Assembly (NCBI GenBank): GCA_013213785.1 | Contig: JABSPZ010000009.1 | Span: forward strand, 124,001 to 188,000 | Source: Henriciella sp. | GTDB taxonomy: Bacteria; Pseudomonadota; Alphaproteobacteria; Caulobacterales; Hyphomonadaceae | Reading direction: 5' to 3' | DNA length: 64,000 bases | Shown: positions 7,774 through 16,145 of the stretch, in pieces | Position numbering within the stretch: the stretch's first letter is position 1 | Layout of the letters: each line of letters starts with the position of its first letter | The notes under the pieces: generated by a model | What the model was told of the DNA's origin: nothing | The model's input: the letters and a program-made list of their open reading frames with translations, nothing else | Database searches by the model: none | Translations under genes and position numbers: made by a program

Positions 7774-8403
7774 TTAAGCGGCAAGCGCTTTCAAAAGTGC
7801 TTCGGCTTGCGTCTTAGAAAACGCTTCCGGCAAAGGCGCCCGCATAATCATGATCCGAGACCAAATTTGGCCGGTCAGAATGTCGACCGCTTGATCCAGG
7901 TCATAGTCGCGGCGAACGACATTCTTTGCCGCGATTTCTGCGAGGATTATCCGAAGCGGCGCGCGGATGTGTTCTTTCATCCAATTGCGCCAAGTTTCCC
8001 CAGCATCCTTGTCATCACTCGCGGCGATCATTGCCGTGCGCAGGACGGCGTGGCCTGAGCCTTGGCGTGTGGTTTCTTCTAACGGGTACACAAGCGCCGC
8101 AATGCGTTCGACTGGGTCGCGGCCCAGCTTAGAGGCTGCTGGAACAAGTTCCACAGCTGCTTCGATGCACATATTTCCGATCGCGGGCCACCAACGATAG
8201 ATGGTTTGTTTGGACGCTTTTGCTTTGCGAGAGACTTTGTCGACGCTGAACTTGCGCCAACCGTTTTCCGCCATCTCTTCTCGTGTGGCCTTCAAGATTG
8301 CGGCACGCGATTCCTCGCTGCTGCGTTGTCCCTTTTTAGGTTTGGCCATCGTATCTGTCATAACGTCCGCATCTTTGAATAGTGTACATATTTTGGCTAA
8401 CAC
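7774..8403 (-). CDS. TetR/AcrR family transcriptional regulator
   Basis: 'SRAAILKATREEMAENGWRKFSVDKVSRKAKASKQTIYRWWPAIGNM' HTH; probable start is an internal Met (MTDTMAK). Confidence 0.9.
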   Translation of the reverse strand: MLAKICTLFKDADVMTDTMAKPKKGQRSSEESRAAILKATREEMAENGWRKFSVDKVSRKAKASKQTIYRWWPAIGNMCIEAAVELVPAASKLGRDPVERIAALVYPLEETTRQGSGHAVLRTAMIAASDDKDAGETWRNWMKEHIRAPLRIILAEIAAKNVVRRDYDLDQAVDILTGQIWSRIMIMRAPLPEAFSKTQAEALLKALAA

Positions 8404-8615
8404 GGAACGAACCGTTTGTCTTTCGTATCGTGCATTAAAATTACGAACGTTTCATGACCTGATAATCACAAACTTACGCGGTGCGAGTGCCCGTAAAATT
8501 GAGACTGGGTTTGCAAAGCGTGACAAAAAGACCGGACAATTCGAAATGAATAGGCGCAGCGCGTGTGCGGCTTATATGGCGACTATCTCAATAGTTGATT
8601 CGACAAGGAACTACC

Positions 8616-9602
8616 GTGGACGTTGCGCTCTCGACCCTTCTTTCGCCGATAATTCTGTTTTTTGCGCTTGGAATGGCTGCCGCTTTGCTGCGTTCGCAGA
8701 TGAGCGTCCCCGAAGCCATCGCTAAAGGCATGGCCATCTATCTGATGATGGCCATTGGCCTCAAAGGCGGGGTCGAAATGTCGAAGAACCCGCTGACCAC
8801 AGAGGTCTTACTGGTCCTGTTGGCGGGTATCGTCCTTTCCTTCCTCATTCCGCTGATTGCTTTCATCTTTTTGAGGCTCACCACCAAGCTCGATCAAGTC
8901 AATGCCGCGGCGACGGCTGCGCATTACGGGTCTATCTCGATTGTCACCTTCGTGGCCGCGACAGAAGCGGTGCGTCTCTCTGGATTTGATAGCGGGGGGC
9001 ATTTGGTTGCCGTGGCAGCCCTTATGGAAACGCCCGCGATCATAACGGCGCTCTTTCTGGCCTCGCGCGGCGGTGGCGGAAGAGAGAAGCCAGTTGCCGG
9101 GTCTGAGCAAGGTGAGCTTGTTCGAGAAGTGTTTCTCAATGCCTCGATCGTCGTACTCGTTGGCGCGCTCGTGATTGGCTGGATTGCTGGAGAAGAGGGC
9201 ACTGAAACGGTCCGGCCATTCTTTGTCGACCTGTTCCAAGGCGTGTTGTGCTTGTTCCTACTCGATATGGGGCTGTCTGCGGGGCGCGGGCTTCGCCAAG
9301 GGTGGCGGCAGCTCAGCGTGATGACTGTCGGATTTGGGCTTTATATGCCGCTCGTTTCGGCCTGTATCGCAGCTGCCTTCGCTTACGCTTTAGGTATGCC
9401 TGTCGGCGATGCAGCTCTATTGATCACGTTGACGGCATCCGCGTCTTACATTGCTGTTCCAGCCGCGATGCGACTGGCGCTGCCAGAAGCGAAACCCTCC
9501 ATCTACTTAACGCTGTCGCTTGGGGTAACCTTCCCGTTTAATGTCACGATAGGCATACCGATCTATATTTATCTCGCACTGCTAATAAACGGACAGGGGT
9601 GA
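8616..9602 (+). CDS. Sodium-dependent bicarbonate transport family permease (SbtA-like)
   Basis: 'LSPIILFFALGMAAALLRSQMSVPEAIAKGMAIYLMMAIGLKGG', 'AAHYGSISIVTFVAATE', 'LTASASYIAVPAAMRLALPEAKPSIYLTLSLGVTFPFNVTIGIPIY'; GTG start chosen after 'aaggaac'. Confidence 0.9.
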   Translation: MDVALSTLLSPIILFFALGMAAALLRSQMSVPEAIAKGMAIYLMMAIGLKGGVEMSKNPLTTEVLLVLLAGIVLSFLIPLIAFIFLRLTTKLDQVNAAATAAHYGSISIVTFVAATEAVRLSGFDSGGHLVAVAALMETPAIITALFLASRGGGGREKPVAGSEQGELVREVFLNASIVVLVGALVIGWIAGEEGTETVRPFFVDLFQGVLCLFLLDMGLSAGRGLRQGWRQLSVMTVGFGLYMPLVSACIAAAFAYALGMPVGDAALLITLTASASYIAVPAAMRLALPEAKPSIYLTLSLGVTFPFNVTIGIPIYIYLALLINGQG

Positions 9603-9605
9603 TCT

Positions 9606-9911
9606 ATGGAGAAGCATTTACGCATCGAGCTGATCATTGAGCGAATGGCCCATAAACGTGCCTGCCGCGTGCTCGAGGCAGGTGGGATGACCGGTTACAC
9701 AGTCGTCCCAGCTATGGCGGGTTATGGAAACTCGAAACGCTGGAGCCGAGACACGGACCTGTCAGCGAGTGGCGACATGGTTGTCATCATATCAATTGGC
9801 GATGAAGCGAAAGTGCGCCCCGTCCTCGATCAGATCGGCGACTTACTGGGCGCACACATTGGCGTGGTGACCGTGACGGAAGTGGAAGTCCTCCGCCCCG
9901 GTCGTTTCTAA
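9606..9911 (+). CDS. PII-like signalling protein (SbtB-like)
   Basis: 101 aa ferredoxin-like PII pattern 'RIELIIERMAHKRACRVLEAGGMTGYTVVPAMAGYG...GDMVVIISIGDEAKVRPVLDQIGDLLGAHIGVVTVTEVEVLR'; begins 3 nt after sbtA-like stop. Confidence 0.85.
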   Translation: MEKHLRIELIIERMAHKRACRVLEAGGMTGYTVVPAMAGYGNSKRWSRDTDLSASGDMVVIISIGDEAKVRPVLDQIGDLLGAHIGVVTVTEVEVLRPGRF

Positions 9912-9918
9912 GATCGGT

Positions 9919-10449
9919 CTAGCCTTCAGAGCCGCGCGCGACGGCTTGCGCGATCAGTTCGCGGGCTTTCTCAACGCCTGACCAGCCTTCAACTTGGCTC
10001 CACTTGCCCGTCTCAAGGTCCTTATAGTGGGTGAAGAAGTGCGTGATCTTCTGGACCAAAATGTCTGGAAGGTCGTGATAAGTCGCGATTTTATCGTAAT
10101 AGGCAGTGAGCTTTGGATGCGGAACCGCGAGGATCTTTTCATCCGGCCCTTTATCATCCGTCATCATCAAAACGCCAACCGGGCGGGCACGAACAACACT
10201 GCCCGGGACCAATGGGCGGTTGCCGACAACCATGACATCGATTGGGTCGCCATCTAGGCTGAGTGTGTGCGGGACAAACCCGTAATTACAAGGGTAGCGC
10301 ATTTCGGTGTAGAGATAGCGGTCAACGAACATCGCGCCGGAAGCTTTGTCGATTTCGTATTTGATTGGGTCGCCGCCCAATGGAACTTCCACAATGACAT
10401 TGAGATCATCGGGTGGATTTTGGCCTGCGGTGATTTTGGTGATGTCCAT
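9919..10449 (-). CDS. ppa: Inorganic pyrophosphatase
   Basis: '[58 protein letters not shown]'; start set at MDITKI. Confidence 0.96.
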
Positions 10450-10578
10450 GGGAGGATGCCTTTTCCAATGCACTAATTTGCGCTGCCCGTGCAGGATCGC
10501 GGCCAAGACGTCAACCGGTCATAAGGTCTTCAGTTCAATTGCATGCAGTGCTGCTTATTAAGCGAGCGACCTAGGGGC

Positions 10579-11352: not shown

Positions 11353-11814
11353 GTGGCGCAGACCAGGTTTACAGTGAATGGCGAAGATCGCGCCGTGGAG
11401 ACGGATCCGAGCACGCCGCTGCTTTGGGTTATTCGCGAAGAGCTTAAGCTCACCGGAACAAAGTTCGGATGCGGGATCGCTCAGTGTGGGGCCTGCACGG
11501 TCCACTTGGATGGGACACCTGTGCGGTCATGCTCGACGCCTCTAGCGGCCGCGGAAGGCGCTGAGGTCACAACGATTGAAGGCGTCGCGTCGGAGGATGG
11601 CACCCGCCACAAGGTCCAAGCCGCTTGGATTGAACATCAGGTCCCGCAATGTGGATACTGCCAATCTGGGCAAATCATGTCTGCGGTCGCCTTGCTTCGC
11701 GACAATCCGAATCCAACGGATGAAGACATTGATACTGCGATGCGCGGAAACATTTGCCGCTGCGGCGCCTATGGGCGGATCCGTGCGGCCATCAAATCAG
11801 CGGCGAGCGCGTAG
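11353..11814 (+). CDS. (2Fe-2S)-binding protein, isoquinoline 1-oxidoreductase alpha / xanthine dehydrogenase small-subunit family
   Basis: '[34 protein letters not shown]' and '[13 protein letters not shown]...[12 protein letters not shown]'. Confidence 0.94.
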
Positions 11815-11825
11815 GGAGATCGATC

Positions 11826-14027
11826 ATGGGAAAATGGACCCGTAGAGGATTTATCGCAGCTGGCCTGGTAGGCGGCGGTGTTCTGGCGGTTGGCGTTGGT
11901 ATTCGCGAAGGTCATCGCGCGCCAAAACTGGCTCACCTGGTCGCAGATGAGGACGAAACGCTCGTCAATGTTTGGGTGAAGCTTTCACCCGACAATACGA
12001 TCACAGCGATCGTCCCACACAGTGAAATGGGGCAGGGGGTGTTTACCTCCATGGCGCAAATGCTGGCGGACGAAATGGATGCTGACTGGGAGAAAGTCAC
12101 ATTTGAGCAAGCGCCCGCTCATGAAGGCTATGCCAACTATCCGCTAGGCCGTGAATTTATTTTGGGAGACACAAAGGTCCCAGGCTTCGTGCAGGATTCG
12201 TTGAACGGTGGATTCTTGCGGATCGCGCAATCCATGGGGCTGCAAATTACCGGCGGCAGCACAGCTGTCCGCTTCACAGGTATGGGCGGCATGCGGATCG
12301 CGGGCGCTGCGGCGCGCGAGATGATCGTCAAGGCTGCGGCCAAAGAATGGGATGTCAAAGCGAGTGAACTCAGCACGCGCAAGAGCATGGTCCTGCATGA
12401 AGCGAGTGGTCGCGAGGCCCCTTACGCAGAGTTTGCGGAACGCGCTGGGAAAATGTCGCCTCCCACGCAGCCAAAGCTGAAAACCCCCGAAGAGTTCACG
12501 CTCATGGGCAAGTCTCTACCGCGGTTCGACATCCCGTCGAAGACCGATGGCACCGCAGAGTTCGGCATTGATGTGGATCTACCGGGTATGAAGTATGCTG
12601 CCGTCATGGGCGCGCCCGTGCTCGGCGCGGAAACTATTAGCGTAGACGACACGTATGCGCGCGACATGCCCGGCGTGATCAAGATCTTGGATAAGGGCGC
12701 GTTTTTAGCGGTTGTGGCTGACGGCTATTGGCAAGCCGAAAACGCAATCCGCCAGCTCGATGTCACATGGAGCGAAACAGGCGCGGAAAACCTCGATCAG
12801 GCTGAGATCTTCGCGCGGATGCGATCTGCGATCGATGATGCGGATGGCAAAGGCGAAGAAGATGTCGCGATCGGCAATGTCCGCCGTGCGTCAGAGTCTG
12901 CCGCTCGTGTCTATGAAGTAGAGTATTCTGTCCCGTTCCTGGCGCATGCCGCCATGGAGCCGCTCAACGCCACGGCTTGGCTTCGCGACGGCAAAATCGA
13001 CTTGTGGTCAGGCTTGCAGAATCCGCTTGCGGTTCGCGACGAGATTGCGGGCGCTTATGACGTGAAAAAGCACGACGTTACCGTGCATAATGTCTTGCTT
13101 GGCGGCGGATTTGGGCGCCGGTCTAATCCGGATTACCCCTTAATGGCGGTCGAAATCGCCAAAGAGTTCGATCACCCGGTCAAGATGATTTGGTCACGTG
13201 AGCAAGACACGCAACAGGACTGGTATCGCCCAGCATCTGTGAGCCGGTTCAAGGCGGGCCTAGATGCAAACGGAATGCCGGTGTCTTGGGACAATATGTT
13301 TACCGAGAAACACGATCCGCCCGAGGCCTCACACATTCCGTACAAAATCGACAATCAGCTGATCCAGTACACGAATGCGGAGCATCACATCCGTTTCGGG
13401 CCTTGGCGATCAGTCGATCACACACAGCATGGTTTCTTTATTGAGAGCTTTATCGACGAACTCGCCGACCAAGCCGGAATGGATGGCTATGCTTATCGGC
13501 GAAAGCTTCTTGAGCACTCGCCGCGATACATTGCGGTCCTCGACGCGGCGGCGAAAGCGGCTGATTGGGGACGAGAGGTCCCTGAAGGTCACGGTCTCGG
13601 GATTGCGCTTGTCGACTCTTTTGGCACCGCGGTCGCGCAGGTGGTCGAGGTCGATGTGGCCGGACCCGAACCGCGGGTCGTTCATGTCTGGTGCGCGGCT
13701 GATCCAGGCTATGCCATGAACCCTGACGGCTTCATCGCGCAAATCGAGAGTGGGATTATCTACGGGCTCACCGCCGCGCTCTATGGTGATATCACCATCG
13801 AAGGCGGCGCTGTGGTTCAGTCGAATTTCCACGATTACCCGATGCTTCGCATAGACGAATCTCCGCAGATTTCCGTTGAGATCATCAATAGCGGAGCAAA
13901 GGTCGGTGGCGGCGGTGAGCCGGGCACTCCTCCGATTGCACCGGCGCTCGCCAATGCGGTGTTTGCAGCCACCGGCGTGCGCGTGCGCAGTCAACCAATC
14001 GCGAACTTCAAGGAAGGGCTCAGCTAA
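11826..14027 (+). CDS. Xanthine dehydrogenase family molybdopterin-binding subunit (IorB-like), Tat-exported
   Basis: Tat-like 'WTRRGFIAAGLVGGGVLAVG'; 'MGQGVFTSMAQMLADEMDADW'; 'GGGFGRRSNPDYPLMAVEIAK'; 'GGGGEPGTPPIAPALANAVFAATG'. Confidence 0.93.
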   Translation: MGKWTRRGFIAAGLVGGGVLAVGVGIREGHRAPKLAHLVADEDETLVNVWVKLSPDNTITAIVPHSEMGQGVFTSMAQMLADEMDADWEKVTFEQAPAHEGYANYPLGREFILGDTKVPGFVQDSLNGGFLRIAQSMGLQITGGSTAVRFTGMGGMRIAGAAAREMIVKAAAKEWDVKASELSTRKSMVLHEASGREAPYAEFAERAGKMSPPTQPKLKTPEEFTLMGKSLPRFDIPSKTDGTAEFGIDVDLPGMKYAAVMGAPVLGAETISVDDTYARDMPGVIKILDKGAFLAVVADGYWQAENAIRQLDVTWSETGAENLDQAEIFARMRSAIDDADGKGEEDVAIGNVRRASESAARVYEVEYSVPFLAHAAMEPLNATAWLRDGKIDLWSGLQNPLAVRDEIAGAYDVKKHDVTVHNVLLGGGFGRRSNPDYPLMAVEIAKEFDHPVKMIWSREQDTQQDWYRPASVSRFKAGLDANGMPVSWDNMFTEKHDPPEASHIPYKIDNQLIQYTNAEHHIRFGPWRSVDHTQHGFFIESFIDELADQAGMDGYAYRRKLLEHSPRYIAVLDAAAKAADWGREVPEGHGLGIALVDSFGTAVAQVVEVDVAGPEPRVVHVWCAADPGYAMNPDGFIAQIESGIIYGLTAALYGDITIEGGAVVQSNFHDYPMLRIDESPQISVEIINSGAKVGGGGEPGTPPIAPALANAVFAATGVRVRSQPIANFKEGLS

Positions 14028-14145
14028 CGCGGTCACGCCCTGGCTTGGCCTTTCCCACAAGCAATCTGTGGTCGGATCTTGTCTTGAGACCCGTGGGTCG
14101 CGTATTGGGACCGCATAAAACGTTGACCAAGCAGGAGTCTTACGA

Positions 14146-14607
14146 ATGACCGATCGTACTTTTGAGCCAATGACAAAGGCAGAAGTTGTCGCCGCGCAGC
14201 GCGCATGGGCCAAATATGTGACGGAACAAGACGTCGAGAACCTCCTCGGCCTTTATGACTTTGGCAGCGCCGATGAGCCACTTTTGTTTAAGCCAACCTT
14301 GGCGGATGTGATTCGATTGGATCGCGAGGGCGCAAAGTCCTACTTCATTGGGGGCAATCCAGACTTTCCGCACGATCATGGCTTCTTGAAGCGCGGTTGG
14401 AAAACGGTTGAGTTTCAAAGCGCCGCTGGACCGATCCTAAAAGCGGGCGGACTCGGCTACAAAGACATGGGCCACTACACATTCACCGACGGCGACGGTA
14501 ACGCCACACGCGCGGACTACACATTCGCGTACCACAAGCTCAGCGGCCAAGTGTTGATTTCACTGCATCACTCTTCGCTGACCTGGTTCCCACCGATCGA
14601 CGAATAA
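14146..14607 (+). CDS. CaMKII-AD/COG4337-like protein; candidate iota-class carbonic anhydrase
   Basis: 'MTKAEVVAAQRAWAKYV...LLFKPTLADVIRLDREGAKSYFIGGNPDFPHDHGF...MGHYTFTDGDGNATRADYTFAYHKLSGQVLISLHHSSLTWFPP'; C-terminal HHSS motif as recalled for bacterial/cyanobacterial iota-CAs. Confidence 0.62.
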   Translation: MTDRTFEPMTKAEVVAAQRAWAKYVTEQDVENLLGLYDFGSADEPLLFKPTLADVIRLDREGAKSYFIGGNPDFPHDHGFLKRGWKTVEFQSAAGPILKAGGLGYKDMGHYTFTDGDGNATRADYTFAYHKLSGQVLISLHHSSLTWFPPIDE

Positions 14608-14657: not shown

Positions 14658-16061
14658 TTACATTTGCATCGTCCAGCCTTCAACGCCCATAGCCGCCTGA
14701 CGGACGGCTTCTGACAGGGTTGGGTGAGCGTGACAGGTGCGGGCGACGTCTTCAGAAGACGCGCCAAACTCCATCGCAATCGCGATCTCGTGGATCATCT
14801 CGCCGACGCCGACGCCAATCATGTGGGCGCCCAAGATGCGGTCTGTGCCTTCTTCAGCGAGGATTTTCACAAACCCAGCGGTCTCGTGGTTGGTGCGCGC
14901 GCGGGAGTTGGCCATGAAGGGGAATTTACCCCTCTTATATTTGATGCCAGCCTCTTTGAGCTGCTCTTCGGTTTTACCGATCGTTGCGATTTCCGGGTTG
15001 GTGTAGACCACGCCTGGGACGAGATCGTAATCAACGTGTCCGGCTTTGCCTGCGATCAGCTCAGCGACGGCTGCGCCATCATCCTCAGCTTTGTGCGCGA
15101 GCATTGGGCCAGCGATACAATCGCCAATCGCCCAAACGCCTGACGCCACTTTGAAGTGGTCAGTGGTTTCGATCACCCCGCGGCGGTCTGTCTTGCCGCC
15201 AATATTTTCAAGACCGAGGCCTTCAGTGTAGGGGCGTCGTCCGACCGCGACGATCACGATATCCGCGTCGACAGTTTCTGCGTCCCCTCCAGCCGCTGGC
15301 TCCATCGTGAGCTTGAGCTTGGTTTTGAGCTTCTCAACGCTGGTCACTTTGGTGCCGAGCTTGAAGTTTAGGCTTTGCTTTTTGAAAGTCCGCTGGGCTT
15401 CTTTTGCGATCTCATTGTCCGTGCCGGGCAGAATGCGATCGAGGTATTCAATGACCGTGACTTCAGACCCGAGACGAGACCAAACGCAGCCCATTTCCAA
15501 ACCGATGACGCCGGCGCCAATCAGGACCAGCTTCTTTGGGATCGCTTTAAGGCTGAGCGCGCCAACGTTCGAAACAATCCGCTCTTCGTCGATTTCAATG
15601 CCTGGCAGTGTAGAGGGCTCCGATCCCGTCGCGATGACGATGTTCTTCGCAGAGAGTGTCTGCTTGGATCCGTCTTTCGCCGTCACTTCGACTTGTCCGG
15701 GGCCTGTGATCCGACCTTTGCCTTGGACATGGTCGACTTTGTTCTTCTTCAGCAGAAACGCAACGCCTTTTGTCAGGCCATCAACGGCATCTGCTTTTTG
15801 GGCCATCATTTGCGGCAAATCGATTTCCAGTTTGCCGGTTTTGATTCCCATAGAGGCGAAGTCATTCTTCGCCGCTGCGTAATACTCAGACGCGTGCAAA
15901 AGCGCCTTAGACGGGATACAGCCAACGTTGAGGCAGGTCCCGCCAAGTGTATCATTCATTTCGATACAGGCTGTTTTAAGCCCCAATTGTCCTGCGCGAA
16001 TTGCACAATTGTAGCCGCCTGGGCCACCGCCGATGATTACGACGTCATAGGTGTCTGCCAT
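14658..16061 (-). CDS. lpdA: Dihydrolipoyl dehydrogenase
   Basis: 'YDVVIIGGGPGGYNCAIRAGQLGLKTACIE...GGTCLNVGCIPSKALLHASE', 'CHAHPTLSEAVRQAAM'; start set at MADTYD. Confidence 0.97.
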   Translation of the reverse strand: MADTYDVVIIGGGPGGYNCAIRAGQLGLKTACIEMNDTLGGTCLNVGCIPSKALLHASEYYAAAKNDFASMGIKTGKLEIDLPQMMAQKADAVDGLTKGVAFLLKKNKVDHVQGKGRITGPGQVEVTAKDGSKQTLSAKNIVIATGSEPSTLPGIEIDEERIVSNVGALSLKAIPKKLVLIGAGVIGLEMGCVWSRLGSEVTVIEYLDRILPGTDNEIAKEAQRTFKKQSLNFKLGTKVTSVEKLKTKLKLTMEPAAGGDAETVDADIVIVAVGRRPYTEGLGLENIGGKTDRRGVIETTDHFKVASGVWAIGDCIAGPMLAHKAEDDGAAVAELIAGKAGHVDYDLVPGVVYTNPEIATIGKTEEQLKEAGIKYKRGKFPFMANSRARTNHETAGFVKILAEEGTDRILGAHMIGVGVGEMIHEIAIAMEFGASSEDVARTCHAHPTLSEAVRQAAMGVEGWTMQM

Positions 16062-16145
16062 GGGATATTTTGCCTGTTCCAGCTCGCCATTAGAATCTGG
16101 CGGCAACCTAGTGTCGTCGTCGGCAAATGCAATCTAAGAAACGAC

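Follow-up and report, generated by a model that had tools for sequence, protein, structure and literature searches.

The stretch of DNA considered here (hereafter the window) comprises 64,000 nucleotides of a Henriciella sp. (Hyphomonadaceae) genome and carries, at 14146-14607, an open reading frame (ORF) that the initial annotation proposed as a candidate iota-class carbonic anhydrase (CA); the three amino acid stretches quoted in support of that proposal are all present exactly. The ORF lies between an iorAB-like molybdenum hydroxylase pair and lpd, and further upstream a TetR-type regulator is followed by a putative relic of a beta-class CA (beta-CA), the bicarbonate transporter gene sbtA with its partner sbtB, and ppa (table 1). 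Compared with a 93%-identical orthologue (locus L022, genome G026), the ORF has a nonsynonymous substitution rate (dN) of 0.038 against a synonymous rate (dS) of 1.44. Because dN is far below dS, and because proteins 75-93% identical are encoded at 80 loci in other genomes, the ORF is a genuine gene under strong purifying selection and not a chance frame. Its nearest carriers (G026, G022, G014, and G007; loci L022, L037, L063, and L070) are Henriciella metagenome-assembled genomes (MAGs).

Table 1. Features of the window around the predicted CA gene and the sbtA-sbtB module
Feature	Position	Strand	Remarks
TetR-type regulator	7774..8403	-	Left border of the former beta-CA slot
Putative relic, C-terminus of a lost beta-CA	8495..8542	+	Slot directly upstream of sbtA; E 0.36 on its own
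sbtA, Na+-dependent bicarbonate transporter	8595..9602	+	PF05982, 380 bits
sbtB-like PII protein	9606..9911	+	Adjoins sbtA; PF00543
ppa, inorganic pyrophosphatase	9919..10506	-	Right border of the beta-CA/sbtAB module
iorAB-like molybdenum hydroxylase pair	11353..14027	+	Genes at 11353-11814 and 11754-14027; left flank of the iota-CA gene
Shine-Dalgarno sequence AGGAG of the iota-CA gene	14133..14137	+	8 nt before the ATG
Predicted iota-type CA gene, COG4337-related, 153 aa	14146..14607	+	ATG start; catalytic candidates T51, Y66, H141, S143; CO2-pocket F80
lpd, dihydrolipoyl dehydrogenase	14658..16106	-	Right flank of the iota-CA gene

The encoded protein is easily misannotated, as had been anticipated: no Pfam family matches it, and its sole NCBIfam match (NF047901, 'metal-independent carbonic anhydrase', E 4e-21) scores 75 bits against an equivalog cut-off of 350, so that an annotation pipeline would leave it unnamed. 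The exported iota-CA paralogue of the same genome (L021) also falls under this cut-off with 116 bits; the cut-off therefore acts as a narrow naming rule and not as a limit of the family. Among structures in the PDB, the only strong relatives found by phmmer are the iota-CAs 7c5x (1e-30) and 7c5v (1e-17), with the COG4875-type protein 3h51 a weak next (E 3e-4). An AlphaFold2 model built on a 38-sequence alignment (predicted local distance difference test 93.5, predicted template modeling score 0.88) forms a cone-shaped alpha+beta barrel resembling 7c5v, the cyanobacterial COG4337 enzyme with which a structural comparison had been suggested; 7c5v and 7c5x are its top Foldseek matches (E 7e-12 to 7e-11, template modeling score 0.78-0.82), followed by 3h51 (E 2e-8) and by other NTF2-like folds from E 2e-6.

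Substitution of alanine for Thr106, Tyr124, His197, or Ser199 abolishes the activity of all2909 from Anabaena (PMC8132391), and phmmer and multiple alignments place these residues at T51, Y66, H141, and S143 of the window protein. Across the 38 aligned proteins T51, Y66, F80, and S143 are invariant and H141 is conserved in 90% or more, which bears out the expectation that the Tyr, Ser, and Thr of the substrate pocket would be conserved. F80 is the counterpart of Phe138 of all2909, and the dispensable Lys180 is replaced by Y125, a Tyr as in Bigelowiella natans. The window protein thus resembles the metal-independent all2909 of Anabaena sp. PCC 7120 (PDB 7c5v/7c5w) in its predicted fold, HHSS motif, single domain, and active-site set (Thr106/Tyr124/Phe138/His197/Ser199); unlike all2909, to which it is 31-32% identical, it has no N-terminal leader, a shorter N-terminal helical segment, Tyr for Lys180, and a loop insertion around KAGGLGYKD. 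The best sequence match, Bn86287 of B. natans (PDB 7c5x/7c5y), shares the active-site set and also has Tyr where all2909 has Lys180, but consists of three fused domains with plastid targeting, whereas the window protein is one free domain. The COG4875 iota-CAs (LCIP63 of T. pseudonana, BteCA-iota of Burkholderia territorii, and the related 3h51, only weakly matched) share the NTF2-like fold and the HHSS motif but belong to a different superfamily and are reported to be metal-dependent.

Homology and predicted fold support the class first proposed: the window protein, which is divergent and has no signal peptide, is related to the metal-independent iota-CAs (COG4337), and CA activity without a metal would be expected of it. 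The NTF2-like fold serves many functions, 256 PDB chains match the model at E <= 0.001 in Foldseek, and CA activity in the clade is predicted; it could therefore be imagined that the protein has the iota-CA fold but works as an NTF2-like or SnoaL-like enzyme with a different function. We consider this very improbable, since iota-CAs rank ahead of all other members of the fold in both sequence and structure, the four residues defined by mutation are retained, and the gene replaces a beta-CA beside a bicarbonate pump.

The bacterial COG4337 proteins described so far are predicted to be exported (PMC8132391), a signal peptide being usual, though not defining, for prokaryotic members. No hydrophobic N-terminal stretch is present in the window protein, in the nine open-frame codons upstream of it, or in its clade, in keeping with the cytosolic location first proposed. 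By contrast, the second iota-CA copy of the host genome (L021, on contig 6) has a lipoprotein-like export signal and, in the alignment, a longer N-terminal helical segment; an IS3-type transposase pair lies ~0.9 kb downstream of it (L021:2534-3705). In the gene tree the clade is split from the exported COG4337 proteins with full support on a very long branch, and the missing signal peptide supports its status as a separate, probably cytosolic, subgroup.

Records in the clade are labeled as Alpha- and Gammaproteobacteria, Planctomycetota, Myxococcota, Binatota, Acidobacteriota, Gemmatimonadota, Verrucomicrobiota, and Anaerolineae, yet remain 75-93% identical to the window protein; many of these labels come from MAG bins of a few metagenome sets, and individual labels may be wrong. 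A multi-phylum spread at such identity indicates that the clade probably spread by horizontal transfer under strong constraint. Carriage on mobile elements was considered and rejected, with no member of the clade in phages, IMG/VR viral contigs, or plasmids; plasmids hold only distant relatives of the exported type (<60% identity). Several of the plasmid proteins (H1-H3, H9, H14, H17-H19; e.g., NZ_CP067171.1 119061-119621) are labeled phosphoribosyl-AMP cyclohydrolase, an apparent misannotation, and another distant COG4337 relative, annotated as hypothetical, is flanked by IS26 copies on a conjugative Klebsiella pneumoniae plasmid from hospital sewage (L175 7917-8477). Some genomes or bins have two copies of the clade gene (G237, C54 and C68; L042/L043; L056/L064).

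The presence of the clade gene is reciprocal to that of beta-CA. Among 61 related genomes, beta-CA (PF00484) is absent from all seven carriers (G000, G007, G014, G022, G026, G028, and G036) and present in 51 of the 54 non-carriers (Fisher 2.8e-7); an alpha-CA is present in two of the three beta-CA-free non-carriers, and the third genome is 90% complete. An alpha-CA is no substitute in the carriers, as none was found in any of the seven. A class-wide sample gives the same picture, with beta-CA missing in 6/6 carriers and present in 197/283 non-carriers; the carrier G137 can be set against G326 of the same genus, which lacks the clade gene and has beta-CA. Beta-CA is also retained in genomes that carry the exported paralogue alone, and across many phyla it is missing from 36 of 50 carrier genomes. 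On a species tree built on a glutamate dehydrogenase of 1,575 aa, carrier status switches six times, with at least four of the switches on well-supported branches, so a single ancestral event in Henriciella is not supported. Beta-CA moves opposite to the iota-CA in every independent pair on the tree; the four supported pairs alone would not suffice for a significant sign test. The most likely explanation is DISPLACEMENT of the zinc enzyme: the clade iota-CA has repeatedly replaced beta-CA in marine bacteria.

The place from which beta-CA was lost can be located. The non-carriers G002 and G010 have the gene order TetR, beta-CA, sbtA, sbtB, ppa, and G005 differs only in a further gene before ppa, whereas the carriers G000, G007, G014, G028, and G036 have TetR-sbtA-sbtB-ppa without beta-CA. 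In G036 the slot still holds a 56-residue beta-CA fragment (46% identity, E 1e-11), and in G007 a similar beta-CA tail ends in a stop codon. The relic in the window aligns over 17 residues (IETG..RDKKTGQF) with the beta-CA tail IESGELHWRDKKTGAF of G002, in matching frame and place, and the stretch 8495-8542 is probably the stub of a lost beta-CA, 5.6 kb upstream of the iota-CA gene. The iota-CA gene itself sits away from the slot, at a different place in each lineage; in the window it is 4.2 kb past sbtAB and flanked by iorB and lpd. Our interpretation is that beta-CA was lost in place and the iota-CA was gained by insertion, in either order. In the carrier G022 the slot upstream of sbtA (L192, G022:C11; L186 reverse-complemented, 835-1395) holds an rfbC-like (dTDP-dehydrorhamnose epimerase-like) ORF and no stub. 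The slot beta-CAs of G015 and G024 (L176, L177) differ strongly from those of G002 and G010 (L178, L179), close Henriciella relatives, and sbtAB is absent where this other version is present; because of these divergent beta-CAs and the absence of sbtAB alongside one version, the slot appears to be a place where bicarbonate modules are exchanged.

SbtA itself occurs in 30 of the 32 distinct alphaproteobacterial carriers, compared with 10 of 46 non-carriers that have beta-CA (p 8e-11; G237 and G077 are one genome, as are G185 and G087, and each was counted once), which suggests a partnership between the iota-CA and SbtA. COG4337 enzymes hydrate CO2, but their dehydration activity is very low (4-6 vs 17-86 Wilbur-Anderson units per mg). 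No catalyst alters the position of an equilibrium, but a CA that dehydrates bicarbonate slowly would leak less of the bicarbonate imported by SbtA, and this is the reason for the pairing that we favor. Since most carriers come from a few metagenome sets and SbtA tracks them so strongly, the anticorrelation with beta-CA could instead be a by-product of niche, in which certain marine communities favor SbtA together with the iota-CA and beta-CA is lost once SbtA supplies bicarbonate. We think this improbable: G002, G010, and G005 have SbtA yet keep beta-CA, and among the SbtA-positive genomes examined beta-CA is missing only in carriers of the iota-CA.

Zur-controlled backup enzymes are known, and the metal-free CA might likewise be made when zinc is short, perhaps as an ancestral role from which the window copy later became a constitutive form. 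This account agrees with displacement of beta-CA on the identity of the enzyme and differs on why and when it is made. Unbiased clustering of neighbors at 81 loci places families of the Zur-regulon backup type among the top (COG0523 GTPases 9, HisI 8, Zur-like 6, FolE 5, CysS 4, ThrS 4), and zinc-starvation genes (COG0523/ZigA, HisI, Zur, FolE, CysS, ThrS) lie within 6 kb of the clade gene at 16 sampled loci dispersed over the gene tree, the expectations for their enrichment being based on assumed per-genome copy numbers. Such a gene set has been described for Zur regulons (PMC2770081). Zur-like boxes (GTAATGTTATAACRTTAC) precede the CA gene at L074, hisI-CA at L084, and folE-hisI-CA at L040 and L041. 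The alternative CAs of known Zur regulons (the gamma-CA Cam and B. subtilis ytiB; PMC2770081, PMC6103462) occur, like this subset of the clade, in Zur clusters with folE, hisI, cysS, thrS, and COG0523; unlike the window clade, Cam is a gamma-class enzyme and ytiB does not belong to the iota-CAs, and the literature searched yielded no Zur regulon containing an iota-CA. At the window copy, two patterns found no Zur box (counts were at chance level) and no zinc genes lie beside it; 65 of the 81 loci are not zinc-linked, and the Henriciella carriers have no beta or alpha zinc CA left to back up. Beta-CA is kept in 8/16 zinc-linked carriers against 6/34 others (p 0.04), one of several tests and not relied on. 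The zinc-starvation account is a real contender, if one short of an even chance. Zinc saving recurs in the clade as a genuine theme, yet given the missing Zur box it is not what controls the window gene at present.

Many members of the clade also differ in how translation appears to start. The codon aligned with the window ATG is non-standard in 27 of 57 mainly alphaproteobacterial members (ATT 20, ATC 4, GTT 3; e.g., L040:6001, L041:1642, L057:6001, L058:5452, L066:6001, L068:6001, and L075:6001), mostly with the same Shine-Dalgarno sequence 8 nt upstream, and ATT is used in the isolates Roseobacter cerasinus and Jannaschia pagri. Thirteen of the 27 have no ATG, GTG, or TTG from the upstream stop to the conserved FEPM, and the codons between vary synonymously, with S/T-E/D-R kept. 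Non-AUG starts repressed by initiation factor 3 (IF3) are known, such as the GTC of sigR (PMC5472188), and recurrent non-canonical (AUU) initiation in the clade is likely. More tentatively, and less likely than not to hold in full, these strands may be joined into a single account: a cytosolic, metal-free clade spread between phyla and repeatedly replaced beta-CA in bacteria with SbtA, its almost exclusively hydrating catalysis would not short-circuit the pump, and an AUU start under IF3 would lower its output in many members.

We hold with good confidence that a cytoplasmic COG4337 CA of the metal-independent type has displaced beta-CA in this lineage. CO2 would be converted to bicarbonate in the barrel pocket through Thr51, Tyr66, His141, and Ser143 without a metal; the zinc beta-CA would have been lost from its place ahead of sbtA-sbtB, and the bicarbonate supply would now rest on SbtA plus the metal-free enzyme. 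Zinc saving, and a slowly dehydrating CA that does not leak the bicarbonate pumped by SbtA, are two likely reasons for the swap. This reading is built on homology, the predicted fold, the catalytic residues, the reciprocal beta-CA pattern on the tree, loss from the slot, and co-occurrence with SbtA. Several points weigh against it. The clade shares 31-32% identity with the characterized enzymes and lacks part of their N-terminal helical segment, and CA activity is a prediction for every one of its members. The host genome encodes further possible CAs besides the window protein, namely the exported paralogue and a gamma-CA-like hexapeptide protein (L107:1234-1764; NF050158, 170 bits, below the cut-off). 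The relic in the window spans just 17 residues and is identified by its position and frame; a beta-CA match remains in 14 of the 50 carrier genomes of the wider clade, mostly MAGs, so displacement is not absolute; and the SbtA comparison ignores phylogeny and used non-carriers chosen as beta-CA positive.

Most bacteria need a CA for growth in ordinary air, and to our knowledge the cytoplasmic CAs known to meet that need all use a metal. What is new about this iota-CA is its role in genomes, where it stands in for beta-CA: on several occasions in nature a metal-free CA seems to have assumed that task, and here the vacated slot and a probable stub of the former gene can still be seen. This gives the metal-independent iota-CAs a likely physiological role and ties them to bicarbonate pumping and zinc saving.
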